Assembly (NCBI RefSeq): GCF_007556705.1
Contig: NZ_VJOL01000004.1
Coordinates: forward strand, 1 to 64,000
Origin: Tepidimonas thermarum
GTDB taxonomy: Bacteria; Pseudomonadota; Gammaproteobacteria; Burkholderiales; Burkholderiaceae_C
Reading direction: 5' to 3'
DNA length: 64,000 bases
This document shows, in pieces, positions 2,925-26,464 of the stretch. Below the pieces are notes generated by a model. That model saw nothing but the letters and a program-made list of their open reading frames with translations, had not been told where the DNA came from and did not search any database. Position 1 is the first letter of the stretch. Each line of letters starts with the position of its first letter. Made by a program: the position numbers and the translations under genes.

Positions 2925-4291
2925 CGTCTGCTTCCCAAACCATCGACCTCAAACTCGACAAGCGCCGCGCTGCGTCGGACGGTGACGCACGCGGCTGGCT
3001 GGCCCGCCGCACCGCGTGGGACTGGGCCTATGCGCTGCTGGCCGTGGTGGGTGCCGCGGCGGCGTTTTGGCAATGGGGCCACGCCATGGACGGCTACGAC
3101 AAGGCCATCTTGGTCGGTGCCGTGCCCAGCCTGGTGGCGCTGGCGTGGTTCTGGCGCCCCGTGCAGCCGCTGACGGTGGTGGTGGCGCTGCTGTCCTTGC
3201 TGGCCATTGGGCTGTACCAGGTGGATGGCCGCGCGGATCTGGCCCGTGCGGAACAGGTGTTTGCGCTCAAATACTTTTTGTCCAGCCAGTCGGCCATCCT
3301 TTGGATGAGCGTGCTGTTTTTCATGAGCACGGTGTTTTACTGGATCGGGCTGCTGGCCCCGCGTGGGGGCGAGACCGCTGAGCGCTTGGGTTCGCGCTTG
3401 GCCTGGGTGGCGGTGACGCTGGCGCTGGTGGGCACCATGGTGCGCTGGTACGAGAGCCACCAGATCGGCAACGGCATCGGGCACATCCCTGTGAGCAACC
3501 TGTACGAGGTGTTCGTGCTGTTTGCCTGGCTGACCGCGGCCTACTACCTGTACTACGAAGACCGCTACCAAACGCGCAGCATGGGGGCGTTTGCCATGCT
3601 GATCGTCAGTGCCGCGGTGGGCTTTTTGCTGTGGTACACCGTGGTGCGTGAGGCGCACCAGATCCAGCCGCTGATCCCGGCGCTGCAGAGCTGGTGGATG
3701 AAGCTGCACGTGCCGGCCAACTTCATCGGCTACGGCACGTTTGCGATTGCGGCGATGCTGGCCTTTGCCTACCTGATCAAGCAAAGCGCGGGCGAGACGA
3801 GCTGGGTCAAGCTCGCGCCGCTGTGGCTGTTGGGCATCGTCTTGTGCTTTGAGCCGTTGGTGTTTCGGCAGGACGCGGCAGCCAAGGGCAGCAGCTACTG
3901 GTTCGTGTACTTTGGCGTGTCGGCCTTGATCGTCGGCGGCATCCTGGCGGCGCGGCGGCGCATCGCGGCGCGGCTGCCCAGCCTGCAAGTGCTCGACGAT
4001 GTGATGTACAAGGCGATCGCCGTCGGCTTTGCGTTTTTCACCATCGCCACCGTGCTGGGTGCGCTGTGGGCGGCCGAAGCCTGGGGCGGCTACTGGAGCT
4101 GGGACCCGAAGGAGACCTGGGCGCTGATCGTCTGGCTCAATTACGCGGCGTGGCTGCACATGCGCCTGATGAAAGGCCTGCGCGGCACCGTCGCCGCGTG
4201 GTGGGCCTTGGTGGGGCTGGGCGTGACGACGTTCGCCTTCCTGGGCGTCAACATGTTCCTCAGCGGCCTGCACAGCTACGGCGCGCTCTAA
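2921..4291 (+). CDS. ccsB: Cytochrome c biogenesis protein CcsB (ResC/CcsA family haem lyase)
   Basis: A 456-residue polytopic protein and partner of ResB. The haem-binding WWD motif is visible near the C-terminus as WGGYWSWDPKETWALIVW, and conserved histidines occur in flanking segments (for example 'KLHVPANFIGYG' and 'AAWLHMRL', and 'SGLHSYGAL' at the end). It has about eight to ten hydrophobic segments, as expected for the family. It starts inside the resB stop (ATGA at 2921-2924). Together the two genes form a complete system II cytochrome c synthetase that would mature cytochrome c1 (petC, 50082) and other c-type cytochromes. It is followed after 18 bases by msrP. Confidence 0.95.
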   Translation: MTSASQTIDLKLDKRRAASDGDARGWLARRTAWDWAYALLAVVGAAAAFWQWGHAMDGYDKAILVGAVPSLVALAWFWRPVQPLTVVVALLSLLAIGLYQVDGRADLARAEQVFALKYFLSSQSAILWMSVLFFMSTVFYWIGLLAPRGGETAERLGSRLAWVAVTLALVGTMVRWYESHQIGNGIGHIPVSNLYEVFVLFAWLTAAYYLYYEDRYQTRSMGAFAMLIVSAAVGFLLWYTVVREAHQIQPLIPALQSWWMKLHVPANFIGYGTFAIAAMLAFAYLIKQSAGETSWVKLAPLWLLGIVLCFEPLVFRQDAAAKGSSYWFVYFGVSALIVGGILAARRRIAARLPSLQVLDDVMYKAIAVGFAFFTIATVLGALWAAEAWGGYWSWDPKETWALIVWLNYAAWLHMRLMKGLRGTVAAWWALVGLGVTTFAFLGVNMFLSGLHSYGAL

Positions 4292-4309
4292 GACGCCAGG
4301 GCACAGGCC

Positions 4310-5287
4310 ATGACGCCGCCACGCCCCAGCGAGATCACGCCGCGGGCGGTGTATGCGTCCCGGCGGCAGTGGCTTGTGCGCGCCGGCATGGCTGCGGCCG
4401 GGGCGTGGGGCGGCTCCCTCGTGCCCGGCGCCGCGGCGGCGGCCCCTGCCACGGCGCCGCGTCCCCAGCGCCTGGCGGCCCTGCCGGCCGTGGCCAGCAC
4501 GCTGGCGGGTGCGCGCACCGACGAGGCGCTGACGCCCTATGCGCTGGTCAGCGGCTACAACAATTTTTACGAGTTCAGCACCGACAAGGAGGAGCCCGCA
4601 CGGCTGGCGGCGCGCATGCGGCTGCGTCCGTGGGCGGTGCAGGTGGACGGTTTGGTGGCCAAGCCGCAAACCCTGGACATCGACGATTTGCTGCGCCTGG
4701 CCCCGCTGGAGGAGCGCATCTACCGCCTGCGCTGTGTCGAGGGCTGGTCGATGGTGGTGCCCTGGATCGGCTATTCGCTGTCGGCGTTGATCGAGCGCGT
4801 GCAGCCGCTGGGCAGCGCCAAGTACGTCGAATTTCACAGCTTGGCCGATCGCGAAACCATGCCCGGCGTGCGCTCCAGCGTGCTGTTGTGGCCGTATGTG
4901 GAAGGCCTGCGTATGGATGAAGCACGCCATCCGCTGACCCTGCTCGCCCTGGGCCTTTATGGCGAGGTGCTGCCGCCGCAGAACGGGGCGCCGGTGCGCG
5001 TCGTGGTGCCGTGGAAGTACGGCTTCAAGAGCGCCAAGTCGATCCTGCGCATCCGCTTCGTGGAGCGCCAGCCCGCCACCGCCTGGAACGTGGCCGCGCC
5101 GCACGAGTATGGCTTTTACGCCAACGTCAATCCCGACGTGCCGCACCCGCGCTGGAGCCAGGCCACCGAGCGCCGCTTGGGGCAGGGTGGCATTTTTGCC
5201 CCACGGCGGCCGACGCTGCCGTTCAACGGCTACGCCGAGCAGGTGGGCCACCTCTACGCGGGGATGGACCTGCGGCGTTTTTACTGA
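4310..5287 (+). CDS. msrP: Protein-methionine-sulfoxide reductase catalytic subunit MsrP (YedY), periplasmic molybdoenzyme
   Basis: A 325-residue molybdopterin enzyme that reduces oxidised methionines in periplasmic proteins. The N-terminus carries a twin-arginine leader: [10 protein letters not shown] around residues 17-26, then an alanine-rich hydrophobic stretch to about residue 46, so it should be exported folded by the TatABC system encoded at 42991-44542. The sulfite-oxidase fold is recognisable, with molybdenum-ligand Cys142 in the [15 protein letters not shown] motif and the [18 protein letters not shown] segment near the C-terminus. Length matches the family. The msrQ start follows within two bases of its stop. 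Confidence 0.95.
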
Positions 5288-5288
5288 C

Positions 5289-5933
5289 GTGGACCGTTGG
5301 CTGCGCGCGGCCCAACCGTGGGTGCTGCTGGCGCTGGGCGCCCCGGCGGTGTGGCTGTGGGGGCTGGCGCTGGCCGATCGGCTGGGCGCCAATCCGGCAG
5401 AGGCGCTGATCCGTGGCCTGGGCCTGTGGGCGCTGCGGCTGCTGTGGCTGACGCTGCTGGTCACCCCGCTGCGGCAGTGGACGGGCTGGCACGCACTGGC
5501 CCGCTGGCGCCGCGGTCTGGGGCTGTGGGCGTTCGCCTACACGGCGCTGCATCTGCTGGCCTATGCCTGGCTGGACCAGGGCGGCGTGGTCGTGGCCATC
5601 GTGCGGGACGTGGCGCAGCGGCCGTTCATCCTGGTCGGCGCGCTGGCGCTGCTGCTGCTCGTGCCGCTGGCAGCGACGTCGTTCGACCGCGCCATCCGCC
5701 GACTGGGGGCGGCACGCTGGCGCGCCCTGCACCGGCTGGTGTACGGGGTGGCGCTGCTGGCCCTGCTGCACTGGTTCTGGATGCGCAGCGGCAAACGCGT
5801 CTACGGCGAGGTGGCGGTGTATGCCGCGGTGCTGGCCTTGCTGTTGGGCTGGCGGCTGCGCGCTGCCATCAGTCGAGCGCGAGCGCGCGCTCCTGCCGCC
5901 ACAGGTCGGCCACCGTCTCGCGCGCGCGGATGA
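5289..5933 (+). CDS. msrQ: Protein-methionine-sulfoxide reductase haem-binding subunit MsrQ (YedZ)
   Basis: A 214-residue inner-membrane b-type haem protein that passes quinone-derived electrons to MsrP. The GTG start at 5289 is chosen because it lies just after the msrP stop and gives MDRWLRAAQPW, matching the family N-terminus; the longer frame upstream overlaps msrP. Haem-ligand histidines are visible in FAYTALHLLAYAWLDQG and in LHRLVYGVALLALLHWFW. It has five or six hydrophobic segments. The arginine-rich tail overlaps the end of lysA on the opposite strand by 65 bases, an unusually long convergent overlap. Confidence 0.93.
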   Translation: MDRWLRAAQPWVLLALGAPAVWLWGLALADRLGANPAEALIRGLGLWALRLLWLTLLVTPLRQWTGWHALARWRRGLGLWAFAYTALHLLAYAWLDQGGVVVAIVRDVAQRPFILVGALALLLLVPLAATSFDRAIRRLGAARWRALHRLVYGVALLALLHWFWMRSGKRVYGEVAVYAAVLALLLGWRLRAAISRARARAPAATGRPPSRARG

Positions 5934-7167
5934 GCTGCGCTTGTGCGCCGCTGACCAGCACCTCGGCCGCTTTGCCGCGCGTGTTGTAGTGGCTGGCCAT
6001 GCTCATGCAGTAGGCACCGGCCGAGCCCACGGCCAGCCAGTCGCCGGGCCGCACCGCCAGCGCCCGATCACGCCCCAGCCAGTCGCCGCTTTCGCACACC
6101 GGCCCGACGACGTCCCAGACCGTTGGTGGTTCGGTGCGGGGCCGCACCGGCGCGATCGCGTGGTAGGCCTCGTACATGGCCGGGCGCGGCAGGTCGTTCA
6201 TCGCCGCGTCCACGATCAGAAAATGTTTGCTGCTCCCCGGCTTGGTGTAGAGCACTTCGGTGACGCAAATGCCCGCATTGCCGACCAGAGAGCGGCCCGG
6301 CTCCAGCAGCAGGCGGCGATGGCCGTGGCCGCGCGCGTCCAGCCGCGCCAGCAGCGCCTGCCACAGCGCGTCGGGTGTGGGCGGGTGCTCGCCATGGTAT
6401 TCGATGCCCAGGCCGCCACCCAGGTCCAGGTGGTGCAGGGGGATGCCTTCGGCTTCGATGGCCTCCACCAGATCGAGCACACGCTCCAGCGCATCCAGAT
6501 AGGGCGCGACGCTGGTGATTTGCGAGCCGATGTGGCAATCGATGCCCACGACGGACAAACCGCGCAGGCTGGCGGCGTGGCGGTAGGCGTCGAGCGCCTC
6601 CTCGTGCGCGATGCCGAATTTGTTGTCCCGCAGCCCGGTTGAGATGTAGGGGTGGGTTTGCGCATCGACGTCCGGGTTGACGCGCAGGCTGACGGGCGCG
6701 CGCACCCCGCGCTCGCGCGCAACCTCGTCGAGCACATCGAGTTCGGCTCGGCTCTCGACGTTGAAGCAGCCGATGCCGACGTCAAGCGCACGTCGCATTT
6801 CGGCACGCGTCTTGCCCACGCCGGAAAAAACGATGCGCTGCGGCGCCGCGCCGGCGCGCAGGGCGCGCTCGAGCTCACCGCCCGAGACGATGTCGAAGCC
6901 GCACCCGGCGCGCGCAAACACCTCCAAGATGGCGAGGGTGGAATTGGCCTTCATCGCGTAGCAGATGAGGGCGTCGCGCCCCTGCAGCCCGCGCTGGTAG
7001 GCCGCGACCGCGGCGCGCATGGCCGTTGCCGAGTAGACGAACAGTGGCGTGCCGTGCTCCCGCGCCAGATCGGCGACGCGCACGTCCTCCACCCACAGCT
7101 CCCCGTCGCGGTAGGCGATGTAGGGGGCGCCAGGCAAATAGGGGGGCGACGGCTCAGCGGGGGGCAT
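5869..7167 (-). CDS. lysA: Diaminopimelate decarboxylase
   Basis: A PLP enzyme of fold type III that converts meso-diaminopimelate to L-lysine, the last step of lysine synthesis. The PLP lysine lies in the [16 protein letters not shown] motif, with the glycine-rich phosphate site [11 protein letters not shown] and the active-site cysteine motif VCESGDWLG further on. The start at 7167 gives [13 protein letters not shown], 432 residues; an upstream in-frame ATG at 7179 is also possible. A start at 7251 would overlap most of lptM and is rejected. It overlaps lptM by 14 bases, so they probably form one transcript. Its last 65 bases overlap msrQ. Confidence 0.95.
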
Positions 7168-7327
7168 GGGGTGCGGCATGGGGCGTGGTCGTGGCGGCGG
7201 GGGGGCTGTCGGCCGGCGCAGGCGGCAGCACGAGCGGTCCTTTTTGCCCACATCCGCTCAGGGACATGGCCCAAACGGCAACCAGCAGCCACGCGCGGCC
7301 GCCTACAATGGCGCGGATCGAAGGCAT
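7154..7327 (-). CDS. lptM: LptM-like small lipoprotein (YifL family)
   Basis: A 57-residue predicted lipoprotein. The N-terminus is a short signal with lipobox LSGC (Cys26), followed by the family signature [12 protein letters not shown]. YifL/LptM proteins act in the outer membrane, where LptM helps mature the LptD-LptE lipopolysaccharide translocon. Linkage to lysA is the usual arrangement in proteobacteria. A TAGAAT hexamer seven bases before the ATG suggests a leaderless or near-leaderless transcript. It is divergent from cyaY with 16 bases between start codons. Confidence 0.85.
7304..7309 (+). promoter_or_regulatory. Predicted -10 element for cyaY
   Basis: TACAAT on the plus strand, 34 bases before the cyaY ATG at 7344 and inside the divergent lptM coding sequence. 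No good -35 is visible. Confidence 0.3.
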
Positions 7328-7334
7328 GGCAGCG

Positions 7335-7340
7335 ATTCTA
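7335..7340 (-). promoter_or_regulatory. Predicted -10 element for lptM-lysA
   Basis: TAGAAT on the minus strand lies seven bases before the lptM ATG, which puts the transcription start at or within a base or two of the start codon. No clear -35 is seen. It is one of several genes here with this spacing. Confidence 0.4.
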
Positions 7341-7343
7341 GCG

Positions 7344-7676
7344 ATGACCGATCTCGAATACCTGGACCGGGCCGAGGCGGCCCTCAAGGCGGTGGAGCTC
7401 AACTGCGACCGCCTCAACGAAACCACCGATGCGGACATCGACAACCAGCGCGTGGGCGGCATGATCACGCTGACCTTCCGCAACGGCAGCCAGATCGTGA
7501 TCAACCTGCAAAAGCCGCTGCACGAAATCTGGATGGCGGCGCGCTCCGGCGGCTACCACTACCGCTTCGATGGCCAGCGCTGGATGGACACCAAGGGCGC
7601 GGGGGAGTTTTTTGCCCACCTCTCGCGCGAGGCGTCGGCCCAGGCCGGCATGCCGCTGACCTTCACCCCGATGTGA
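7344..7676 (+). CDS. cyaY: CyaY, bacterial frataxin homologue
   Basis: A 110-residue cytosolic iron-binding protein that modulates iron-sulfur cluster assembly by IscS. The family core is clear: acidic helix 1 ([17 protein letters not shown], then [10 protein letters not shown]), the strand sequence [29 protein letters not shown] and [19 protein letters not shown]. The start at 7344 (MTDLEYLD) matches the family. In-frame ATGs at 7326 and 7308 would add N-terminal residues not usual for CyaY. It is divergent from lptM-lysA and convergent with mrcA. Confidence 0.93.
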
Positions 7677-7697
7677 TCGCCGCGCCCGCGCGCACCG

Positions 7698-7712
7698 GGG
7701 CGGTTGCCGCCC
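7698..7712. terminator. GC-rich hairpin between convergent cyaY and mrcA
   Basis: GGGCGG (7698-7703) pairs with CCGCCC (7707-7712) around a TTG loop. It lies in the 48-base gap between the two stop codons. It has no T-tract on either strand, so termination is only suggested by position. Confidence 0.3.
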
Positions 7713-7724
7713 ACGCGCGGCCCC

Positions 7725-10106
7725 TTACGGCCGGAACAGGTCCAGGATGCTGCGCTTTTCGCGCGGGTCGCTGGCGTCGCCGTCGGGCGGCGCCTCACCA
7801 CGGGGCAGGGTGGCCGCGTCCTCGAACCCCAGGCGCCTGACGTAGCTGCCGTCGGCGTATTCCTCGTACACCCAATCTCCGCCCGCGAAGGCGACGCCAG
7901 ACGGTGGCGGGATTTCCTGCACCGGCACGTCGCGCAGCGCTTGCCCCATGAAATCGATCCAGATCGGCAAGGCCAGCGCCCCGCCCGTGGCGCGCCGCCC
8001 CAGGTTGCGCGGCGTGTCGTACCCCAACCACGCGGCGGCGGCCAGCGTCGGGTGAAAGCCCACGAACCACGCATCCTGCGCGTCGTTGGTGGTGCCGGTT
8101 TTGCCGTAGAGGTCGGGCCGCTTGAGCGTGGCCTGTGCGCGCGCCGCGGTGCCCGAGCGCGTGATTTCGTTGAGCAGCTGGCTCATCACAAAGGCGTTGC
8201 GCGGCGGCAGCGTCCGGTTGGTCTCATCGGGGGCTTGGGGCGGCACATCGAGCAGCACGCGGCCCTTGGGGTCGGTGATGCGGGTGATGAGCACCGGCGG
8301 CAGGTAGTGCCCGCCATTGGCAAACACGCTGTAGCCGGCCGCCATTTCCAGTGGCGTGACGGCCCCCGCGCCCAGCGCCATGGTCAGGTAGGGTGGATGC
8401 TTGGCGGGGTCCAGCCCAAAGCGCGTGATCCACTGCTGCGCCGATTGGGTGCCGACCGCACGCAACACCTGGATCGAGACCATGTTTTTGGACTTGGCCA
8501 GCGCGCTGCGGATGGTCATCGGCCCCTCGTACTGCCCGTCATAGTTTTTCGGCTCCCACGGCTTGCCGCCGGTGACGCTGGCCGGGAAAAACAACGGCGC
8601 GTCGTTGACCACGGTGGCGGGCATGATGCCTTTTTCCAGCGCTGCGGAGTAGATGAACGGCTTGAAGCTGGAGCCAGGCTGGCGCTGCGACTGGGTGACG
8701 CGGTTGAATTGGTTGCGCTCGTAGTCAAAGCCGCCGACCAGCGCGCGGATGCCGCCATCGCGCGGGTCCACGGCGACGAATGCCGCTTCCACCTCCGGCG
8801 TTTGGGTCAGGTACCAGCCCTGCGGTCCTTTGACGATGCGCACCACCGCCCCGGGGCGCAGCTTGAGGCTGGGGGGGGCCTGCTCGCTCAGGCCCGAGCG
8901 CACCGCATCCAGACCGGCGCCGGTGATTTCGATGGGCGTGTCGTCGCCGCGCACGACCACCACGCGCCGTGGGTCTGCCGACAGCACCACGGCGGTCAGC
9001 AGCGGCTCGTTGTCGGGTACGGCGCTCAGCGCCTCGTCGATCGCGGCCGCGCGGGCGGCCGGGTCGCTGGGCAGGTCGATGAAGCGCTCGGGCCCGCGGT
9101 AGAACTGGCGGCGCTCGAAATCCACGATGCCTTGCCGCACGGCCCGCCAAGCGGCGCGCTGCAGGGCGGGGTCGATGGTGGTGTGCACCTGCAAGCCGGC
9201 GGTGTAGGCGTCTTCGCCATAGCGGTTGACGATGATCTGGCGCACCATCTCGGTGATGTATTCCGCGTGGATGCCCGGGTCGCTTGGGCGGCGCAGGCGC
9301 AGCGGCTCTTCGCGGGCGGCGCGCGCTTGGGCTTCGGTGATGAAGCCGTTTTCGAGCATGCGGTCGATGATGTAGAGCTGCCGTGCGCGCGCCCGCTTGG
9401 GGTTGCTGATCGGGTTGTAGGCCGACGGCGCCTTGGGCAAGCCGGCCAGCAGCGCCGCCTCGGCGATGGTCAGTTCCTGGAGCGATTTGCCAAAGTAGGT
9501 GCGCGCGGCGGCCGCAAACCCGTACGAGCGCTGCCCCAGGAAAATCTGGTTCATGTAGATCTCGAGGATTTGCTCTTTGGTCAGCAAATGCTCGAGCTTG
9601 AAGGTGAGCAAGATCTCATAGATCTTGCGCAGGTAGCTCTTTTCGCTGGAAAGGTAGACGTTGCGCGCCACCTGCATGGTGATGGTGGAGGCGCCTTGGC
9701 TCTTGGCTTCGCCCAGGTTGGCCAGCGCCGCGCGCAGCAGGCCGCGGTAGTCCACCCCGCCATGCTCGAAGAAGCGCGCGTCCTCGATGGCGAGCACGGC
9801 GTTGATCATCACCGGCGGAATGTCCTCGAACGGCACGACGATGCGCCGCTCCTCGCCAAATTCGCCCAGCGGTGTGCCGTCGCGCGCGTACACCCGCAGC
9901 GGCAACTTGGGGCGGTAGTCGGCCAGCTCGCTGACATCGGGCAGGTTGGGGTACGCCATGGCCAGCGCCAAGGCGATCAGCATGGCCAGGGCCAGCCCGG
10001 CGGCCACCGCGGCCCCGATGGCCCCGAACAGCCAGCGCCGCCACCGCGGCGCTGAGGCAGGGGTGGGGGCAGGCGCGGGGGAGGGCGGGGTGGTGTGTCG
10101 CGGCAT
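7725..10106 (-). CDS. mrcA: Penicillin-binding protein 1A, bifunctional peptidoglycan glycosyltransferase/transpeptidase
   Basis: A 793-residue class A PBP. It has a proline-rich cytoplasmic head, one membrane anchor (about residues 27-50) and a GT51 glycosyltransferase domain with catalytic Glu108 in IEDARFFEHGGVD and the later ASTITMQVARN motif. An OB-like insert follows at about 330-430. The transpeptidase has nucleophile Ser479 (SSFK), SKN at 539-541 and KTG at 669-671. It polymerises and cross-links peptidoglycan at the inner-membrane surface. Divergence from pilMNOPQ is widely conserved in beta- and gammaproteobacteria. All catalytic motifs are intact. Confidence 0.97.
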   Translation of the reverse strand: MPRHTTPPSPAPAPTPASAPRWRRWLFGAIGAAVAAGLALAMLIALALAMAYPNLPDVSELADYRPKLPLRVYARDGTPLGEFGEERRIVVPFEDIPPVMINAVLAIEDARFFEHGGVDYRGLLRAALANLGEAKSQGASTITMQVARNVYLSSEKSYLRKIYEILLTFKLEHLLTKEQILEIYMNQIFLGQRSYGFAAAARTYFGKSLQELTIAEAALLAGLPKAPSAYNPISNPKRARARQLYIIDRMLENGFITEAQARAAREEPLRLRRPSDPGIHAEYITEMVRQIIVNRYGEDAYTAGLQVHTTIDPALQRAAWRAVRQGIVDFERRQFYRGPERFIDLPSDPAARAAAIDEALSAVPDNEPLLTAVVLSADPRRVVVVRGDDTPIEITGAGLDAVRSGLSEQAPPSLKLRPGAVVRIVKGPQGWYLTQTPEVEAAFVAVDPRDGGIRALVGGFDYERNQFNRVTQSQRQPGSSFKPFIYSAALEKGIMPATVVNDAPLFFPASVTGGKPWEPKNYDGQYEGPMTIRSALAKSKNMVSIQVLRAVGTQSAQQWITRFGLDPAKHPPYLTMALGAGAVTPLEMAAGYSVFANGGHYLPPVLITRITDPKGRVLLDVPPQAPDETNRTLPPRNAFVMSQLLNEITRSGTAARAQATLKRPDLYGKTGTTNDAQDAWFVGFHPTLAAAAWLGYDTPRNLGRRATGGALALPIWIDFMGQALRDVPVQEIPPPSGVAFAGGDWVYEEYADGSYVRRLGFEDAATLPRGEAPPDGDASDPREKRSILDLFRP

Positions 10107-10174
10107 GGCAGGGCCGACAGGGCCGAGGTGATGTCGGGGCCGGGATGGCCGTTGTTCCTCGCAACGGTCGCCGG

Positions 10175-10180
10175 ATTATA
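10175..10180 (-). promoter_or_regulatory. Predicted mrcA promoter -10 (TATAAT)
   Basis: A perfect TATAAT on the minus strand, 68 bases before the mrcA ATG, with no convincing -35. The predicted start near 10168 puts a hairpin, CCGTTG (10149-10154)/CAACGG (10162-10167), at the extreme 5' end of the mRNA, where it could protect the message. Confidence 0.5.
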
Positions 10181-10195
10181 GGGAGCACGGCAGTT

Positions 10196-10209
10196 TGCCC
10201 GGACGGCCG
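10196..10209 (+). repeat. 14-base direct repeat, copy 1 (mrcA side)
   Basis: TGCCCGGACGGCCG, identical to 10330-10343. It lies where the -35 region of the mrcA promoter would be. Confidence 0.6.
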
Positions 10210-10329
10210 CACGGCGCGCGCTGTGTCGGTTTCAGGCAACGCTTGCGGCCGATACCGCGCGATCGCACAACCGATGGCGCTGTGCGCCGCGCATCATTGC
10301 TGCTAGGATTGATAGCACAGGCACCATGC

Positions 10330-10343
10330 TGCCCGGACGGCCG
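10330..10343 (+). repeat. 14-base direct repeat, copy 2 (pilM side)
   Basis: TGCCCGGACGGCCG, identical to copy 1 at 10196-10209. Here it forms part of a short dyad (CCCGG, ACGG, CCGGG) that ends 18 bases before the pilM start codon. Confidence 0.6.
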
Positions 10344-10361
10344 GGTCTTTGGGGGTAGGAG

Positions 10362-11444
10362 TTGACCATACTCGCATCATTGTTGCGCCGCGGGCCCGCG
10401 CCGCTGCTGGGCATCGACATCAGTTCGACCACCCTCAAGCTGGTCGAATTGGATCGCGCACGCGACGGCGGCTACGTGCTGCAGCACTGCGCGATCGAGC
10501 CCCTCGAGCGCGGCTGGGTCGCCGAAGGCAACATCGAAAAATTCGACGAGGTTGCCGAGGCCCTGCGCCGCTTGGTGCGCAAGGCGGGCACCCGCACCAA
10601 AAACGTGGCCCTGGCCCTGCCCGGCTCGGCCGTGATCACGCGCAAGGTCCATTTGCCCGCCGGCCTATCCGAGGACGAGCTGGAGGTGCAGGTCGAGGCT
10701 GAGGCGGCGCAGCTCATTCCCTTTCCGCTGGCGGAGGTGGCGCTCGACTTCTGCGTCGTCGGGCCGTCGTCCACGGCACAGGGCTACGACGAGGTGCTGG
10801 TGGCCGCGTCGCGTAAGGAGCGCGTGTCCGACCGGCAGGGCTTGGCCGAAGCCGCCGGCCTCAACCCGGTGATCATGGACATCGAGCCCTATGCATCGCG
10901 GCTGGTGGCGCGGCGCGCGATCGAGCGGCTGCCCAAGGTGGGGTCGCGCCGGCTCGTCGCGCTGTTCGAGATCGGGTCGCAATCCACCGCCCTGCAGGTC
11001 ATCCAGGACGATGACATGGTGTACGAGCGCGACCAGCCCATCGGCGGCGCGATGCTGACGCAGGCCATCGCGCGCCAGTACGGGTTGTCGCCCGAAGAGG
11101 CCGAGCAGAAAAAGAAACTCGGCGCCGGGTTGCCAGCGGACTACCCCCAGACAGTGCTGCAACCCTACCTGGAGACGCTGGGCCAGGAGTTGGGCCGCGC
11201 CTTGCAGTTTTTCTTCACCAGCACACCGCACAACCGGGTGGACCATATCCTGCTGTCCGGGGGCGGGGCCAGTCTGCCCGGGCTGGCCGAGGCCGTCACG
11301 GCCCAGACCGGGTTTTCCGCCAGTGTGCTCAATCCGTTTGATGGCATGACGGTGGCGCCCTCGATTCCCGCGGCTCGCCTGGCCGTGGAAGCCACGTCGT
11401 ATCTGATCGCCACGGGCCTGGCGTTGCGGAGGTTCGTGCCATGA
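10362..11444 (+). CDS. pilM: Type IV pilus assembly protein PilM (actin-like ATPase fold)
   Basis: A 360-residue cytoplasmic protein with the FtsA/MreB-like fold. It binds the N-terminal tail of PilN and joins the inner-membrane alignment complex to the pilus motor. Nucleotide-site motifs are visible: LLGIDISSTTLKLVEL at the N-terminus and ILLSGGGASLPGLAEAV near the C-terminus. There is no ATG at the 5' end. The best start is TTG at 10362 (MTILASLLRRGPAPLLGID). An AGGAG at 10357-10361 abuts it with no spacer, and a GGGGGT lies five bases upstream, so translation initiation is probably weak. It overlaps pilN by four bases. Confidence 0.93.
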   Translation: MTILASLLRRGPAPLLGIDISSTTLKLVELDRARDGGYVLQHCAIEPLERGWVAEGNIEKFDEVAEALRRLVRKAGTRTKNVALALPGSAVITRKVHLPAGLSEDELEVQVEAEAAQLIPFPLAEVALDFCVVGPSSTAQGYDEVLVAASRKERVSDRQGLAEAAGLNPVIMDIEPYASRLVARRAIERLPKVGSRRLVALFEIGSQSTALQVIQDDDMVYERDQPIGGAMLTQAIARQYGLSPEEAEQKKKLGAGLPADYPQTVLQPYLETLGQELGRALQFFFTSTPHNRVDHILLSGGGASLPGLAEAVTAQTGFSASVLNPFDGMTVAPSIPAARLAVEATSYLIATGLALRRFVP

Positions 11445-12061
11445 TGGCCATCAACCTGCTGCCGCACCGCGTGTGGGCGCGCAAAAAGCAGCGCGAGGCG
11501 TTTTATCGCCAGTTGGGATTGGCAGCGGTGGCGGGTTTGGCCGTTGCCGCGTTGATCTACACCGTGTTCGAGGCGCGCATCGCGACCCAGGAAGGGCGCA
11601 ACCGCCTGCTGCAGACGGAAATTGCTCGGCTCGATCAGCAAATCAAGGAAATTGCCACCTTGCAGACCGAGCTAGACGCCATGAAGGCGCGGCAGGACGC
11701 GGTCGAAAACCTGCAGGCCGACCGCAACCTGCCGGTGCATCTGCTCAACGAGCTGGTGCGGCGCTTGCCCGATGGGGTGTACTTGCGCTCCATCAAGCAA
11801 GAAGGCGCCAACATTTCGATCACCGGTACCGCCCAGTCGCAGGAGAGGGTCTCGGAGCTGCTGCGCAACCTCTCCAACAACAGCCCGTGGTTGCGCCAGC
11901 CGCAGCTGATCGAAATCACGGCCGGCACGATGAATTTCAACCCCGGCGGGCAGCGACGCGTCTTCCAGTTCTCGCTGCGCGTCGTGCAGGGCAAAGGCGA
12001 GGCGGGCGCCCAGGCGGCCGAGCGGCCACGGGCCGCTGCCGCCCCGGGCGGGGCGGCGTGA
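11441..12061 (+). CDS. pilN: Type IV pilus inner-membrane protein PilN
   Basis: A 206-residue bitopic protein. The cytoplasmic N-terminus begins with the conserved INLLPHR motif that inserts into PilM. One transmembrane helix (about residues 24-45) follows, then a periplasmic coiled coil rich in Q, E and R and a ferredoxin-like domain that dimerises with PilO. The start overlaps the pilM stop (ATGATG at 11441, stop TGA at 11442). Two adjacent ATGs are possible. It ends in an alanine- and proline-rich tail. Confidence 0.94.
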   Translation: MMAINLLPHRVWARKKQREAFYRQLGLAAVAGLAVAALIYTVFEARIATQEGRNRLLQTEIARLDQQIKEIATLQTELDAMKARQDAVENLQADRNLPVHLLNELVRRLPDGVYLRSIKQEGANISITGTAQSQERVSELLRNLSNNSPWLRQPQLIEITAGTMNFNPGGQRRVFQFSLRVVQGKGEAGAQAAERPRAAAAPGGAA

Positions 12062-12084
12062 GCAACGCAAGCGGACGGTGCACG

Positions 12085-12762
12085 ATGGCCTCGAAACGCA
12101 AAACATCCATCGACTGGTCGGCCCTGCAACAGACGGTGCAGCGCCAGTTCAGCGGGCTGGACCCCAACGATCCTTCGCGCTGGCCGGTCCTGCCGCGCGT
12201 GCTGCTGTTGACGGGCGTGGCCGTGGCCATTGTGGTGGGCTTGTGGTATGCCTGGCTGTCGGATCGGCGCGACGCGCTCGACGCTGCCGTGCGGCGCGAG
12301 GGCGAGTTGCGCACCGAGTTCACCCAGAAGGTCAACAAGGCGGCGGCGCTCGATGCGCTCAAGGCGCAACTGGAGCAGGTGCGGCAGTACGTCACGCAGC
12401 TCGAAAAGCAACTGCCCAACCGCGCCGAAATGGACGCGTTGCTGTCCGACATCAACCAGGCCGGCATCGGCCGCGGCCTGCAATTCGAGCTGTTCCGCCC
12501 GGGTCAGGAGGTGGTGCGCGACTACTACGCCGAGCTGCCCATCACGGTGCGCGTCAGCGGCACGTACCACGACATTGGCATGTTCGTCGCCGATGTCGCA
12601 CACCTGTCGCGCATCGTCACGCTCAACAACCTCTCCATCAACCCGGTGGCCAACCGCAATGATTTGCTGACCATGGAAGCCACGGCCAAGACCTTCCGCT
12701 ACCTCGACCCCGATGAGGTGCTGGCGCAAAAGGGGACGAGCGCAAAAGGGGGCAAGAAATGA
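12085..12762 (+). CDS. pilO: Type IV pilus inner-membrane protein PilO
   Basis: A 225-residue bitopic protein and PilN partner. It has a short cytoplasmic N-terminus (WSALQQTVQRQFSGLDPNDPSRWP), a membrane helix near residues 37-57, a coiled coil and a C-terminal periplasmic ferredoxin-like domain. The ATG at 12085 gives MASKRKTSID, the usual family start. A GTG at 12058 overlapping the pilN stop (GTGA) would add nine residues and would allow translational coupling, so it remains a real alternative. It overlaps pilP by four bases. Confidence 0.92.
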   Translation: MASKRKTSIDWSALQQTVQRQFSGLDPNDPSRWPVLPRVLLLTGVAVAIVVGLWYAWLSDRRDALDAAVRREGELRTEFTQKVNKAAALDALKAQLEQVRQYVTQLEKQLPNRAEMDALLSDINQAGIGRGLQFELFRPGQEVVRDYYAELPITVRVSGTYHDIGMFVADVAHLSRIVTLNNLSINPVANRNDLLTMEATAKTFRYLDPDEVLAQKGTSAKGGKK

Positions 12763-17264: not shown

Positions 17265-18422
17265 ATGGACGCGACTCTCTCGCCCGGCGGTGCGGCCGGT
17301 GATGCAGCGGTGGCGCGCGTGCCGCATGGGCCGGCGCACGTGGTCACCATTGATTTGGGGCAGCGCAGTTACCCCATACTGATCGGTGCGGGGTTGCTGC
17401 GTGAGCCTGCGACCTGGGCCGGCTTGCCGCGGGCCTCGACCGCGGTGATCGTGAGCAACACCACGGTGGCCCCGTTGTACGCGGCGGCACTGCACGCAGC
17501 GCTTGCCCCCCACTACCCGCGCGTGCTGGAGGTGGTGCTGCCCGACGGCGAGGCCCACAAGGACTGGCCGACGCTCAACCGCATCTTCGACGCGCTGCTC
17601 GAGCAGGCGTGCGACCGCAAGACCGTGCTGCTGGCGCTGGGCGGCGGCGTCATCGGCGACATGACCGGGTTTGCCGCCGCGTGCTACATGCGTGGCGTGC
17701 CCTTTGTGCAGGTGCCCACCACGCTGCTGGCGCAGGTGGATTCCTCGGTCGGCGGCAAGACCGCCATCAACCACCCGCTGGGCAAGAACATGATCGGCGC
17801 GTTTTACCAGCCGGTGCGGGTGGTGTGCGACCTGGATACGCTGGCCACGTTGCCGGCGCGCGAGTACAGCGCCGGCTTGGCCGAGGTCATCAAATACGGG
17901 CCGATTTTCGATCCGGCGTTTTTGGACTGGATCGAGGCCCACCTGGGGGCACTCATGGCGCGCGATCCGGTGGCCGTTGCCTACGCGGTGCGCCGCAGCT
18001 GCGAAATCAAAGCCGCCGTGGTCGGCGAGGACGAGCGTGAATCCGGCCTGCGCGCCATCCTCAACTTTGGCCACACGTTTGGCCACGCCATCGAGGCGGG
18101 GCTGGGCTATGGGGCTTGGCTGCATGGCGAGGCGGTGGGCTGTGGCATGGTGATGGCGGCCACGCTGTCGCAGCGCCTGGGCCGGGTGTCGCAGGCTTAT
18201 GTGGAGCGGCTTACCCGCCTGACGGCCGCGGCAGGCCTGCCCACGCGTGCGCCCGTGCTGGGGCCCGACAACGCCGCGCGCTACCTGGCGCTGATGCGGG
18301 TGGATAAAAAGGCCGAAGGCGGTGCGATCCGCTTCGTCGTGGTGGACGAGCAGGGCCACGCCGCGCTGCAGGCGGTGCCGGACGCGGTGGTGGCCGAGGT
18401 CATCGAGGCGTGCAGCCGCTGA
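17265..18422 (+). CDS. aroB: 3-Dehydroquinate synthase
   Basis: A 385-residue NAD- and zinc-dependent enzyme that cyclises DAHP to 3-dehydroquinate. NAD-binding and active-site motifs are visible: [53 protein letters not shown], and the zinc ligands in [11 protein letters not shown] and [11 protein letters not shown]. The N-terminus is slightly longer than average ([16 protein letters not shown]), but the ATG at 17265 fits the gap after aroK. dgt follows four bases after its stop. Confidence 0.96.
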
Positions 18423-18426
18423 GGCC

Positions 18427-19605
18427 ATGACCCTGGCGCCGTATGCCTGCGATCCAGCGCGCAGCCGCGGGCGACGTTACCCCGAGCCGGCGGCACCGAC
18501 GCGCAACCCGTTTCAACGCGACCGCGACCGCGTGATCCACTCCACCGCGTTTCGGCGGCTGGTGTACAAGACCCAGGTGTTCCTCAACCACGAAGGGGAC
18601 TTGTTTCGCACCCGGCTGACGCATTCGCTGGAGGTGGCCCAGCTCGGGCGCAGCATCGCGCGCGCGCTGGGTCTGCACGAGGATTTGGTGGAGGCCATCG
18701 CGCTGGCGCACGACCTGGGGCACACGCCCTTTGGCCATGCCGGGCAGGACGCGCTCAACGCCTGCCTGCACGAGGACAACGGCCCTGCCGCGCAGGAGCC
18801 GCGCGGGCCGGATGAACCGCACGGCGGCTTCGAGCACAACCTGCAGAGCCTGCGCGTGGTGGATGAGCTGGAAGCGCGCTACCCCGCATTCGACGGCCTC
18901 AACCTGTGTTTTGAAACCCGTGAGGGCATCCTCAAGCATTGCTCGCGTGCCAACGCCGCGTGGCTGGAGACGCGCGAGCCGGACGGCGTGGGTGCGCGCT
19001 TCCTGCGCGGGGCGTCGCCCTCGCTGGAGGCGCAACTGGCCAATGTGGCCGATGAAATCGCTTACAACGCCCACGACATCGACGACGGTGTGCGCAGCGG
19101 CCTGCTGACGCTGGAGCAGCTCGAGGCGGTGGCGCTGTTCGATGAGCATCGGCGCGCGGCCCTCAGCGACCACCCCACGCTGCGCGGGCGGCGCCTGTTG
19201 TACGAGACCATACGGCGCATGTTGAGCGCCCAGGTCTACGACGTGATCGATGCCACCCGGCAGGCGCTGCGCGAGGCGGGTGTGCAAACGCTGCAGGACG
19301 TGCGCGCGCACCCGCCGCTGTTGCGGTTTTCGGCCGGGATGCGCGAGGCCTCGGCGGCGCTCAAGCGCTTTTTGTTGAACCACCTCTACCGCCACCCGCA
19401 GGTGATGGAGACCACGGGGCGGGCGCGGCAGGTGGTGGCCGACCTCTACCGCGTGTATTGCGCAGACCCGGCGCTGCTGCCCCCCGGCAGCCGGCGCGAA
19501 GGCCTGTCGTTGCGCCGCCAGGTGGCGGATTACATCGCGGGCATGACCGACCGCTTTGCCATCCGTGAGCACGAGCGGCTGACCGGGCAGCGGTTGTTTG
19601 GGTAG
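18427..19605 (+). CDS. dgt: dGTPase-like HD-domain triphosphohydrolase
   Basis: A 392-residue protein of the deoxyguanosinetriphosphate triphosphohydrolase-like family, which hydrolyses dNTPs to nucleoside and triphosphate. The HD metal-binding residues are seen in TRLTHSLEVAQLGRSIAR and in AHDLGHTPFGHAGQDAL; ADEIAYNAHDIDDG supplies the last aspartate. Start MTLAPYACDPARSRGRR at 18427 lies four bases after aroB. The exact substrate is not predictable from sequence. The MFS gene follows four bases after the stop. Confidence 0.92.
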   Translation: MTLAPYACDPARSRGRRYPEPAAPTRNPFQRDRDRVIHSTAFRRLVYKTQVFLNHEGDLFRTRLTHSLEVAQLGRSIARALGLHEDLVEAIALAHDLGHTPFGHAGQDALNACLHEDNGPAAQEPRGPDEPHGGFEHNLQSLRVVDELEARYPAFDGLNLCFETREGILKHCSRANAAWLETREPDGVGARFLRGASPSLEAQLANVADEIAYNAHDIDDGVRSGLLTLEQLEAVALFDEHRRAALSDHPTLRGRRLLYETIRRMLSAQVYDVIDATRQALREAGVQTLQDVRAHPPLLRFSAGMREASAALKRFLLNHLYRHPQVMETTGRARQVVADLYRVYCADPALLPPGSRREGLSLRRQVADYIAGMTDRFAIREHERLTGQRLFG

Positions 19606-19609
19606 CGTC

Positions 19610-20854
19610 ATGCACGATCGCCCCGCGCCGACGCCCACGCCGCGCAGCGCGTTGCCGGTGCAGGCGCGCCTGATCGTGGCGGTGGGCATCGCCAGTGCGC
19701 TGCACGTGGGCAAGCTGCCGCCCGCGTTGCCGCTGCTCGCGCAGGAGCTGGGCCTGACCCTGGTGCAGGGGGGCTTTTTGCTGTCCATGATCCAGTTCGC
19801 GGGCATGACCTTGGGCGCGCTGCTGGGCCAGTTGGCGGACCGGCTGGGGCCGCGGCGGGTGATGATGGTGGGACTGGTGCTGTTGGCGGCGGGCAGCGCG
19901 CTCGGGGCTGTGGCGCCAGGCGCGGCGGCGCTGCTGGGCACGCGCGGCCTTGAGGGGGTCGGGTTCCTCATGACCGTGTTGCCTGCGCCCGCGTTGCTGC
20001 GCCGCACGGTCACCGAGCCGGGCCCGCTCAACCGCGCGCTGGGCTGGTGGGGGGCGTACATGCCGATCGGCGCGGCCACCGGCTTGCTGGTGACGCCGCT
20101 GGCGTATGCCACCATCGGGTGGCGCCTGACCTGGGCTGTGCTGGCCGTGCTGGCGGCGCTGTGCGCGGCCGGGGTGCGCGTGTACGTGGCGCCGGATGGC
20201 CCGCGCGCGCGCGACGCACAGGCATGGGCGGCCCTTCGGCACGGGTTGCACACCACGCTGTCTGCGCCGGGGCCGTGGCTTGTGGCCAGTGCGTTTTTGA
20301 TGTACTCCGGCCAATGGCTGGCGGTCGTCGGGTTTTTGCCCACCCTCTACACCGAAGCCGGTTGGTCGCCGGCGCGCGTGGGCTGGGCCAGCGCGCTGGT
20401 GGCAGGTGTCAATCTGACCGGCAACATTGCGGCCGGCCGCTTGCTGGCGCGCGGCGTGGCACCGCGGTCGCTGCTCTGGACGGGCTATGGCGCCATGGCC
20501 CTTGGCGCCGTGGGCACTTTCACGGCAGGCGCGGGGCTGGCCTATGCATCGGCGCTGGTGTTTTCCGCCGTCGGTGGCCTGATCCCGGGGACCTTGTTTG
20601 CGCTGGCGGTGCGGCTGGCACCGGGGCCGCAGACGGTTTCGACGACGGTGGGCTGGGTGCAGCAATGGTCGTCGCTGGGGCAGTTCGTGGGCCCGCCGTT
20701 GGTGGCGGCGCTGGCGGCCCGGGTTGGCGGCTGGCAGTGGACGTGGACGGTCAACGTGGCGTGCTGCGCGGTGGGCGCGCTGCTGGCCGCGGCCCTGCAC
20801 GCGCGCCTGGCGCAGCAGGTGCGCGCACCGCGCCCCGGGCAGGAGGGCGCCTGA
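19610..20854 (+). CDS. Major facilitator superfamily transporter
   Basis: A 414-residue inner-membrane transporter with about twelve hydrophobic segments. The MFS signature between helices 2 and 3 is visible as GALLGQLADRLGPRRVMMVG. It looks most like the CynX/NimT-type branch, but substrate cannot be deduced. The ATG at 19610 gives MHDRPAPTPTPRSALPVQ, four bases after dgt. The next gene begins directly after its stop with no intervening base. Confidence 0.85.
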   Translation: MHDRPAPTPTPRSALPVQARLIVAVGIASALHVGKLPPALPLLAQELGLTLVQGGFLLSMIQFAGMTLGALLGQLADRLGPRRVMMVGLVLLAAGSALGAVAPGAAALLGTRGLEGVGFLMTVLPAPALLRRTVTEPGPLNRALGWWGAYMPIGAATGLLVTPLAYATIGWRLTWAVLAVLAALCAAGVRVYVAPDGPRARDAQAWAALRHGLHTTLSAPGPWLVASAFLMYSGQWLAVVGFLPTLYTEAGWSPARVGWASALVAGVNLTGNIAAGRLLARGVAPRSLLWTGYGAMALGAVGTFTAGAGLAYASALVFSAVGGLIPGTLFALAVRLAPGPQTVSTTVGWVQQWSSLGQFVGPPLVAALAARVGGWQWTWTVNVACCAVGALLAAALHARLAQQVRAPRPGQEGA

Positions 20855-21592
20855 ATGGCGCGCTTGCCGCGCTTGGCGGTCACCGGTCTGCCGCACCTGG
20901 TGGTGTGGCAGGGGCACAACCGCCAGCTCGTCTTCGTGGACGATGAAGACCGCGCGGCCTTCGTCGCGCTGCTGGCCGAAGCCGTGGCGCGCGAGGGCGT
21001 GGAGGTCCACGCCTGGGTGCTGCTCGACACGGCACTATGGCTGCTCGTCACACCCCGGCGGGACGGCGCCCTGTCGCGCCTGATGCAAGACATCGGCCGC
21101 CGCTACGTGCGGCGCTTCAACCAGCGGCACGGCCGCAGCGGCACGTTGTGGGAGGGGCGTTACCGCGCCTCCGTGGTGGCCCCGGCCGAGGTGCTGACGG
21201 CCATGGTGTGGCTGGATCACGAACCGGTGCGCGCCGGCCTGGCGCCGTCACCCGACGGCTGGCCGTGGTCCACCCACCGCGCCTACGTGGGCCTGGCGCC
21301 GCTGCGCGATGTGCAGCCGCCGCCCCCTTGGTGGGCCTTGGGCGACACGCCTTTTGCCCGCGAAGCCGCCTACCGGGAGCAGGTGCGCGCGGGGCTGCCG
21401 GCCACGCGCGAGCAGGCGTTGCGGGAGGCCGCGCTCAAGGGCTGGCCGATTGGGGACGCAGCCTTTTTGGCGGGGTTGGAGGCCCAAACCGGCCGCCGCA
21501 CCCGCCCGGCCCGGCCCGGGCGCCCCCGTAAACCACCGGTTGATCTGTCCCCAAAAAACTCTACTACTCGAAAGACAGATAAAAAATTGTGA
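20855..21592 (+). CDS. REP-associated (Y1/RAYT-type) transposase homologue lacking the HUH and tyrosine residues
   Basis: A 245-residue protein with the overall sequence of the IS200-like Y1/RAYT family: N-terminal ARLPRLAVTGLPHLVVWQGHNRQLVF, then WVLLDTALWLLVTP, the arginine-rich GRRYVRRFNQRHGRSGTLWEGRYRAS, and a PVRAGL segment. In active members the second motif contains His-x-His (as in NHVH or NHFH). Here those positions are Ala60 and Trp62. The YRYIE-type tyrosine region reads MVWLDHEPVRA, so no tyrosine remains there. The C-terminus is basic and proline-rich. The frame is intact, so it may be a domesticated nucleic-acid binding protein and not a mobile element. It abuts the MFS gene. 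Confidence 0.75.
   Translation: MARLPRLAVTGLPHLVVWQGHNRQLVFVDDEDRAAFVALLAEAVAREGVEVHAWVLLDTALWLLVTPRRDGALSRLMQDIGRRYVRRFNQRHGRSGTLWEGRYRASVVAPAEVLTAMVWLDHEPVRAGLAPSPDGWPWSTHRAYVGLAPLRDVQPPPPWWALGDTPFAREAAYREQVRAGLPATREQALREAALKGWPIGDAAFLAGLEAQTGRRTRPARPGRPRKPPVDLSPKNSTTRKTDKKL
21541..21558 (+). repeat. 18-base direct repeat, copy 1
   Basis: TGATCTGTCCCCAAAAAA, matching 17 of 18 bases of the copy at 21590-21607. It lies inside the 3' end of the RAYT-like gene. Short repeats of this sort often flank RAYT genes. Confidence 0.6.
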
Positions 21593-21607
21593 TCTGACCC
21601 CAAAAAA
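21590..21607 (+). repeat. 18-base direct repeat, copy 2
   Basis: TGATCTGACCCCAAAAAA, 49 bases downstream of copy 1. Its first three bases supply the TGA stop codon of the RAYT-like gene. Confidence 0.6.
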
Positions 21608-21612
21608 TCCAC

Positions 21613-21641
21613 TTGCTGTTTTTGCTGCGATGCACTATCCT
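21613..21641 (+). promoter_or_regulatory. Predicted gltBD promoter
   Basis: TTGCTG (21613-21618) and TATCCT (21636-21641) are separated by 17 bases and lie 35 bases before the gltB start. They fit a moderate sigma-70 promoter. Confidence 0.45.
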
Positions 21642-21676
21642 GTGGTCGTTTTTGTCAACCGACCCAGGAGTCCGGC

Positions 21677-26464
<4,788 letters not shown>

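Follow-up and report, generated by a model that had tools for sequence, protein, structure and literature searches.

Why should a bacterium keep a transposase that has lost its active site? The question is raised by a gene of Tepidimonas thermarum, found in the 64,000 nucleotide stretch of DNA analysed here (the window). A sequence-only reading had described an intact 245-residue frame with the motifs of RAYT-type transposases, whose catalytic residues are replaced. The frame is indeed whole, and its product scores above the cut-off of the Pfam Y1_Tnp profile (25.5 bits, cut-off 23). With the NCBIfam profile REP_Tyr_transpos (NF047646) it reaches 51.7 bits, below the curated cut-off of 80, and no match for the protein was found in PHROGs. 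The start was also correctly placed, the ATG lying directly after the TGA of the preceding ORF. Coordinates of the locus are collected in Table 1.

Table 1. Features of the dead RAYT locus, in window positions. The names of neighbouring genes are those we presume from their sequence and, for the MFS transporter, also from the earlier reading.
Feature	Positions	Strand	Basis
presumed aroB and dgt, common upstream neighbours	17265..19605	+	
presumed MFS transporter, upstream neighbour, inconstant among relatives	19598..20854	+	
RAYT/TIRYT-derived protein, catalytically dead, 245 aa	20855..21592	+	profile, alignment, AlphaFold model
codons 60-62 (Ala-Leu-Trp), replacing the HUH motif	21032..21040	+	
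codons 119-123 (Trp ... Glu), replacing the catalytic Tyr ... Asn of Y---NP	21209..21223	+	
C-terminal three-helix region (predicted), residues 166-212	21350..21490	+	predicted from model
box 1, TCTGTCCCC, terminal-repeat motif, within the 3' end of the RAYT ORF	21544..21552	+	
box 2, TCTGACCCC, directly 3' of the RAYT stop codon, start 49 bp past the start of box 1	21593..21601	+	
likely gltB promoter, TTGCTG-N17-TATCCT, starting 11 bp after box 2	21613..21641	+	geometry shared with relatives
presumed gltB, glutamate synthase large subunit, GTG start, proposed target	21677..26464	+	

The two histidines of the His-x-His motif are replaced by Ala60 (21032-21034) and Trp62 (21038-21040), in a segment that aligns free of gaps between the conserved HA[YW]VL and LL.TP blocks. 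Trp119 (21209-21211) stands at the position of the catalytic tyrosine, and helix 110-121 of the window protein holds no tyrosine. In the Y---NP motif, for which the roles of Y and N are given in the accessible part of Quentin 2018 (PMC6006769), the asparagine, a metal ligand, has become Glu123. Chance or misalignment is ruled out by the gap-free blocks at HUH and by agreement across the genus. So is a sequencing accident, since both motifs are missing in all 11 Tepidimonas genomes examined, while the paralogue on contig C96 keeps them. This paralogue, the one other family member that a genome search found in the organism, has NHVH and MRYVELNP, a full active site. An alignment with relatives, along the lines of the check proposed earlier, placed the loss in 11/11 Tepidimonas genomes examined and in five related genomes of the same dead clade. 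It had been argued that orthologues keeping HUH and Tyr would point to recent decay. Other genera of the family do keep both, but the catalytic loss is at least as old as Tepidimonas, and is therefore not recent.

The fold appears to have outlived the active site. An AlphaFold model of the window protein, made with 65 relatives, has a mean pLDDT of 92.5, and its best PDB match is 4er8, the REP-associated tyrosine transposase of E. coli (Z 16.7, with 159 residues superposed at rmsd 2.5). A profile search against the PDB also gave 4er8 (E 0.0004), instead of the viral clamp proteins to which the single protein had two weak phmmer matches. The TnpAREP fold is thus predicted to be retained although the active-site residues are gone. 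The E. coli enzyme, which shares this fold, is 165 residues long against 245 for the window protein; it cuts REP DNA and has the HuH, Tyr and Asn that the window protein lacks (PMC8266576 and PMC6006769, accessible parts). TIRYTs of subclass 2.1 are characterised by a helix-turn-helix-like domain at the C-terminus. For the C-terminal region of the window protein, in which three helices are predicted, neither a Pfam HTH nor, for the region alone, a Foldseek/PDB match at E 0.001 was found, a missing match being no proof.

The dead copies are under selection. The dN/dS comparison suggested by the sequence-only reading yielded an omega (NG86) of 0.15-0.35 in 13 scored pairs of dead copies, meaning purifying selection. 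In 14 intact pairs omega was 0.08-0.21, and 0.01-0.15 for gltB in the same pairs; the pairs share members and so overlap. The 37 dead proteins all fall within 225-250 aa, whereas after 0.3 changes per site a simple neutral simulation left 1.4% of copies free of stops, and 0-0.15% after 0.5-1.0. Sixteen positions conserved at 90% or more in intact copies fall to 60% or less in dead ones: H15, N21, N22, Y54, V55, N59, H60, H62, C116, Y119, L122, N123, R126, A127, H156 and L199 (letters of the intact copies). The ratio of conservation in dead to intact copies is lowest in the Tyr helix (0.65, residues 111-131) and the HUH strand (0.69, residues 52-67). It is 0.77 for the N-terminal strand (residues 1-28), 1.02 for 29-51, 0.90 for the helix 68-95, 0.94 for 96-110 (GTLWEGR), 0.87 for 132-147, 0.81 for 148-190 and 0.96 for 191-225. 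The drop is largest at the active site, yet it also occurs outside. Some general relaxation is real, as omega is about twice as high in dead as in intact copies and the drop extends to the N-terminal strand and to 148-190. A pseudogene is ruled out by omega, regional conservation and the full length of the dead ORFs. The earlier description of a domesticated, non-catalytic protein fits dead copies that are full length, under purifying selection, most relaxed at the active site and, in the model, still folded as TnpAREP.

How widespread is the gene, and how often has it died? At E 1e-30, an orthologue or close relative was found in 365 of 399 genomes of the family (132 of 141 genera). Each of the 11 Tepidimonas genomes examined has the gene. 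We compared 106 orthologues linked to gltB. Both genes lie on the same strand in all 106 loci, with a gap below 400 bp in 104. A dgt match was present in 52 of the 85 loci having at least 2.4 kb of upstream sequence, and the MFS gene was a less regular neighbour than dgt. The stable partner of the RAYT gene is gltB, not the MFS gene. Sixty-nine of the 106 orthologues are intact and 37 dead, with both motifs lost in 29, Tyr alone in 5 and HUH alone in 3; most of these loci were chosen for their resemblance to the dead window protein, so 37/106 should not be taken as the proportion of dead copies. A fairer value, from family relatives taken one per genus, is 8 dead out of 25. A named set of 80 loci, overlapping the 106, comprised 9 dead and 71 intact copies; that of Hydrogenophaga pseudoflava CZa25-1 is dead, and that of Variovorax paradoxus ISL-3 (L216) is not among the dead rows. 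Tepidimonas fonticaldi AT-A2 also has a dead copy. Rows left out were L111, a 100-base stretch, and the second copies in L102 and L105.

Placed on a gltB protein tree, the dead or intact label changes state 16 times, at least 12 changes being forced by starred (supported) branches; this is a quick tree, in which L054 fills only 12% of the columns. We read these changes as losses because regain of an active site is unlikely. Tepidimonas falls within a clade of 16 dead rows. RAYT and gltB protein distances are correlated (Spearman 0.61 over 104 rows, against 0.28 for the highest of 500 permutations), as expected under mainly vertical inheritance.

What is kept together with the gene is a pair of boxes in the gltB promoter. 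The consensus consists of T[ACG]TGTCCC[CT] followed, on the same strand and 47-50 bp apart, by TCTGACCCC or a close variant of it, and an A/T tail goes with each box. Letter shuffles never (0/1060) gave a pair with at least 16 of 18 matches, which was found in 35/37 dead and 68/69 intact loci. L100, L150 and L131 have no clean pair, their boxes being diverged or rearranged. In the named overlapping set, the pair was present in 8/9 dead and 68/70 intact loci, one locus being too short. A TTG...N16-18...TA...T element starts 9-12 bp after box 2 in 95/103 loci, versus 12/2060 letter shuffles; its commonest hexamers are TTGGCA and TATGCT, its commonest distance to box 2 is 11 bp and its commonest spacer 17. 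A strict sigma-70 consensus scan did not call the putative promoter of the window. Among the 11 Tepidimonas genomes, identity is 0.98 and 0.94 in the boxes, 0.26 (random level) in 16 bp of the spacer and 0.41 in the upstream flank; the box values are biased upward by the use of their own consensus to locate them, their place and distance being fixed nonetheless. The spacing of about 49 bp is no whole number of helical turns. In many loci, inspection by eye shows TTGCANTGCACTA, a motif of TGCA type that overlaps the spacer of the gltB promoter (21619-21641 in the window); a similar motif is seen in the RAYT-less L158 and L159, and is possibly the site of another regulator.

A strict pattern of the pair plus TTG occurs in 167/399 genomes, at one place each, and never in a reversed control; G321 counts one place twice, and coordinates were compared with RAYT or gltB for part of the 167. 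The looser TGTCCCC-N30-45-CTGACCCC occurs once in the T. thermarum genome, and elsewhere also at G+C-rich places in G015, G021 and G058 and in repeats of G057. Single TSTGWCCCC sites are in excess in the T. thermarum genome (38 versus 16 in the control), and from this excess there may be further targets beyond gltB. A repeat family was rejected for that genome, as 19 of the 20 other TCTG[AT]CCCC places are G+C-rich (55-77%) and have no A/T tail; the remaining one is the site before the C96 paralogue. A box hairpin was also rejected as a conserved feature, its excess being weak in intact loci and nil at box 2 in dead ones.

Taken on the opposite strand, the boxes fit GGGGWSAS, the motif of TIRYT terminal repeats in the accessible parts of PMC3733652 and PMC6006769. 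L104, a catalytic relative from another family, has perfect inverted ends that carry the box motif, GTGGGGTCAGACTCCAC on one side and GTGGAGTCTGACCCCAC on the other. The genome harbouring it (G057, from another family of the order; TIRYT at L104 2632-3363) also has dispersed repeats of the form TGTCCCCTTTTCC...GGAAAAGGGGACAG...CTGACCCC at four places of contig C1, a live-looking counterpart of the gltB boxes. The intact second RAYT of the T. thermarum genome (C96:256-969, L001) has GGGGTCAG upstream, and the long ORF after it is presumably a methyltransferase.

At the window locus the right-end motif occurs twice, and no GGGGWSAS was found within 400 bp upstream of the gene. A left-end GGGG[AT]CAG at most 120 bp upstream is present in 24/68 intact and 1/37 dead loci (Fisher 8e-5; 27/71 and 0/9 in the named set), a difference that is not significant on 12 independent pairs (median sign-test p 0.125). 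The rarity of the left end in dead loci is in line with its loss once cutting was lost, as a trend only.

Are the boxes found where RAYT is not? In none of 18 RAYT-less gltB promoters, each examined over 450 bp, was the pair present. Six are from the family, in genomes that gave no match at 1e-30 and with the stretch itself free of RAYT. The other 12, from the order, represent 11 genomes without a match at 1e-5; in 5 of these 12 the gltB is of a distant type (37-40% identity), which leaves 13 close comparisons. L156, L160, L162 and L177, whose promoter or enough upstream sequence is missing, were not counted, and neither was G164 (L153), which has boxes and no detected RAYT but whose contig ends 185 bp upstream. 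G065, G116 and G159 have no match at 1e-30 yet do carry a divergent RAYT; their boxes are related but rearranged, and only L157 passes the pair score. In L155 and L161 (G116 and G065), the box-2 side is turned round, GGGGACAG, upstream of gltB, giving an inverted repeat that is perhaps the ancestral form of the site. Genome-wide, the strict pattern occurs in 166/365 genomes with a RAYT match and 1/34 without (1e-30, Fisher 1.6e-7); 14 of the 34 were counted by absence from the match list, and several of the 34 are incomplete. Part of this association would be expected simply because gene and boxes are linked.

Linkage is broken in five genomes. RAYT and gltB are 0.9 kb apart in G026, some 5.7 kb in G388, some 7.6 kb in G329 and some 5.6 kb in G428 (the gammaproteobacterium Stenotrophobium rhamnosiphilum); in G211 they sit on separate contigs. 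The box pair is at gltB in 5/5. G388 and G329, of one genus, perhaps represent one event. The RAYT genes of G211 and G428 are dead and still present, though apart from gltB. These separated loci argue most strongly that the boxes do not simply travel with the gene, and fit an action in trans. In L072 (G026), box 1 begins about 0.76 kb after the RAYT stop. In L237 (S. rhamnosiphilum, 3712-12732) the order is aroB-dgt-dead RAYT, then response regulator-like and sensor kinase-like ORFs, then gltB with its boxes, which reflects either old synteny or transfer between classes.

We observe that catalytic residues are lost while the gene is long kept in one position under purifying selection, with relaxation strongest at the active site, and that the boxes are conserved, stand in a fixed geometry and co-occur with the gene. 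To account for this, we propose that the exapted transposase probably serves as a DNA-binding regulator of gltB, for which catalysis is dispensable. This protein would bind the boxes, and binding would alter gltB expression in either direction. Conserved sites at one promoter, a fixed geometry and co-occurrence with the gene, all seen here, are features of a promoter-specific regulator. In an ancestor of the Burkholderiales compared here, a transposase of the TnpAREP/RAYT branch (TIRYT type) would have settled upstream of gltB, where it has since mostly remained; its right terminal repeat would have turned into a part of the gltB promoter, the two same-strand boxes. The protein would then have been kept for binding the boxes and thereby setting gltB transcription. 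Box 2, next to the -35 element, is where an activator or repressor beside RNA polymerase would sit, and box 1 would lie slightly under five helical turns further upstream. As cutting would be unneeded for the promoter job, HUH, Tyr and metal-ligand residues could be lost, as has happened many times and, in Tepidimonas, before its species split. A shift from single-strand to duplex recognition would fit a box 2 hairpin that is weakly paired in intact loci and absent in dead ones. For the wider claim, that the whole lineage, catalytic or not, has been kept family-wide as a dedicated glutamate synthase regulator, with cutting dispensable since the transposon end joined the promoter, we see the arguments as evenly balanced.

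The strongest of the other explanations, which we still regard as unlikely, is that the boxes are a gltB promoter element used by RNA polymerase or another regulator, a relic of an old insertion, while RAYT does something else (for instance, binds single-stranded DNA) and is linked to them by history only. The fixed distance between boxes and promoter, the presence of boxes at gltB where RAYT is elsewhere, and the boxes of G164 would all suit it. It does not predict that the boxes match both the terminal-repeat motif of the family (PMC3733652 and PMC6006769, accessible parts) and the exact ends of the catalytic L104, that the pair is missing from 18/18 counted RAYT-less promoters, or that the RAYT gene is still kept in the separated cases. 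That the dead copies are instead functionless relics on their way out seems highly improbable: their omega does exceed that of intact copies, catalytic loss is frequent, and 34/399 family genomes have no match at E 1e-30 (at least 3 of them with a divergent RAYT), but 37/37 dead ORFs are full length where neutral simulation leaves few free of stops, omega stays well below 1 with the largest conservation drop at the active site, and all 11 Tepidimonas genomes examined keep the gene.

Could the dead protein be a guard, covering the fossil transposon end at gltB or pairing with a catalytic paralogue, and so blocking cutting there? The catalytic paralogue in the T. thermarum genome, preceded by GGGGTCAG, would give it something to guard against. 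We nevertheless think this very improbable, as a second match (E up to 1e-5) exists in only 2/11 Tepidimonas genomes and intact orthologues keep the same boxes. An action on RNA, or on a single-stranded hairpin of the boxes, for example in a RAYT-gltB transcript, appears about equally improbable. The arms of box 2 in intact loci pair slightly better than shuffled partners (5.69 vs 5.26, sd 0.14), and catalytic L104 has hairpin-like ends; against this, dead loci show no excess at box 2 (4.66 vs 4.68) and a small arm excess at box 1 (5.31 vs 4.88, sd 0.20), no Rfam match was found in 20500-22200, and the boxes lie upstream of the likely gltB transcription start.

Regulation of gltB by an exapted transposase can be set against known systems, on the accessible parts of the papers cited. 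With TIRYT/TnpAREP subclass 2.1 (Di Nocera 2013, PMC3733652; Quentin 2018, PMC6006769) the window protein shares the Y1 fold, a C-terminally extended length, low copy number and a right-end GGGGWSAS, and we infer that it belongs there. The TIRYTs of PMC3733652 keep HUH and Tyr, both lost here, and have GGGGWSAS terminal inverted repeats on both sides, whereas the window locus has no left-end motif and its right end is a gltB promoter element. In PMC6006769, Quentin et al. kept only sequences with HuH and Y, so dead copies would be absent from their tree. The nearest parallel in kind, by analogy, is TldR, the nuclease-dead TnpB repressors (PMC13418256), where a protein of IS200/IS605-type transposons has likewise been inactivated repeatedly and linked to host genes, and has kept DNA binding. 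TldR derives from the RNA-guided TnpB; the window protein corresponds to the Y1 transposase, and the site proposed for it is a former end of its own transposon, now in a promoter.

Earlier work had described the enzyme family and its largely vertical inheritance, and had put forward the idea of domestication (PMC6006769, PMC8266576, accessible parts), and RAYT-type transposases are described as housekeeping-like in behaviour, with an uncharacterised host benefit (PMC6006769, accessible part). In the accessible part of a review of recruited mobile elements (PMC8987985), the term RAYT is absent. What is new here is the two terminal-repeat boxes in the gltB promoter, kept alongside a dead RAYT. 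Our literature search, whose coverage did not extend to Bertels et al. 2017, found no report of a dead RAYT at gltB. That work reportedly concerns domesticated RAYTs and may bear on novelty.

The candidate target is a named gene with two candidate sites, and catalytic knock-outs abound in nature, so that the host benefit of a RAYT becomes testable at one promoter. If the proposal is true, a RAYT-type transposase would have a host function, and a dozen or more natural catalytic knock-outs would show that the benefit does not need catalysis. A Y1 transposase would then have become a transcription factor by way of its own terminal repeat, a route beside the RNA-guided one of TldR.
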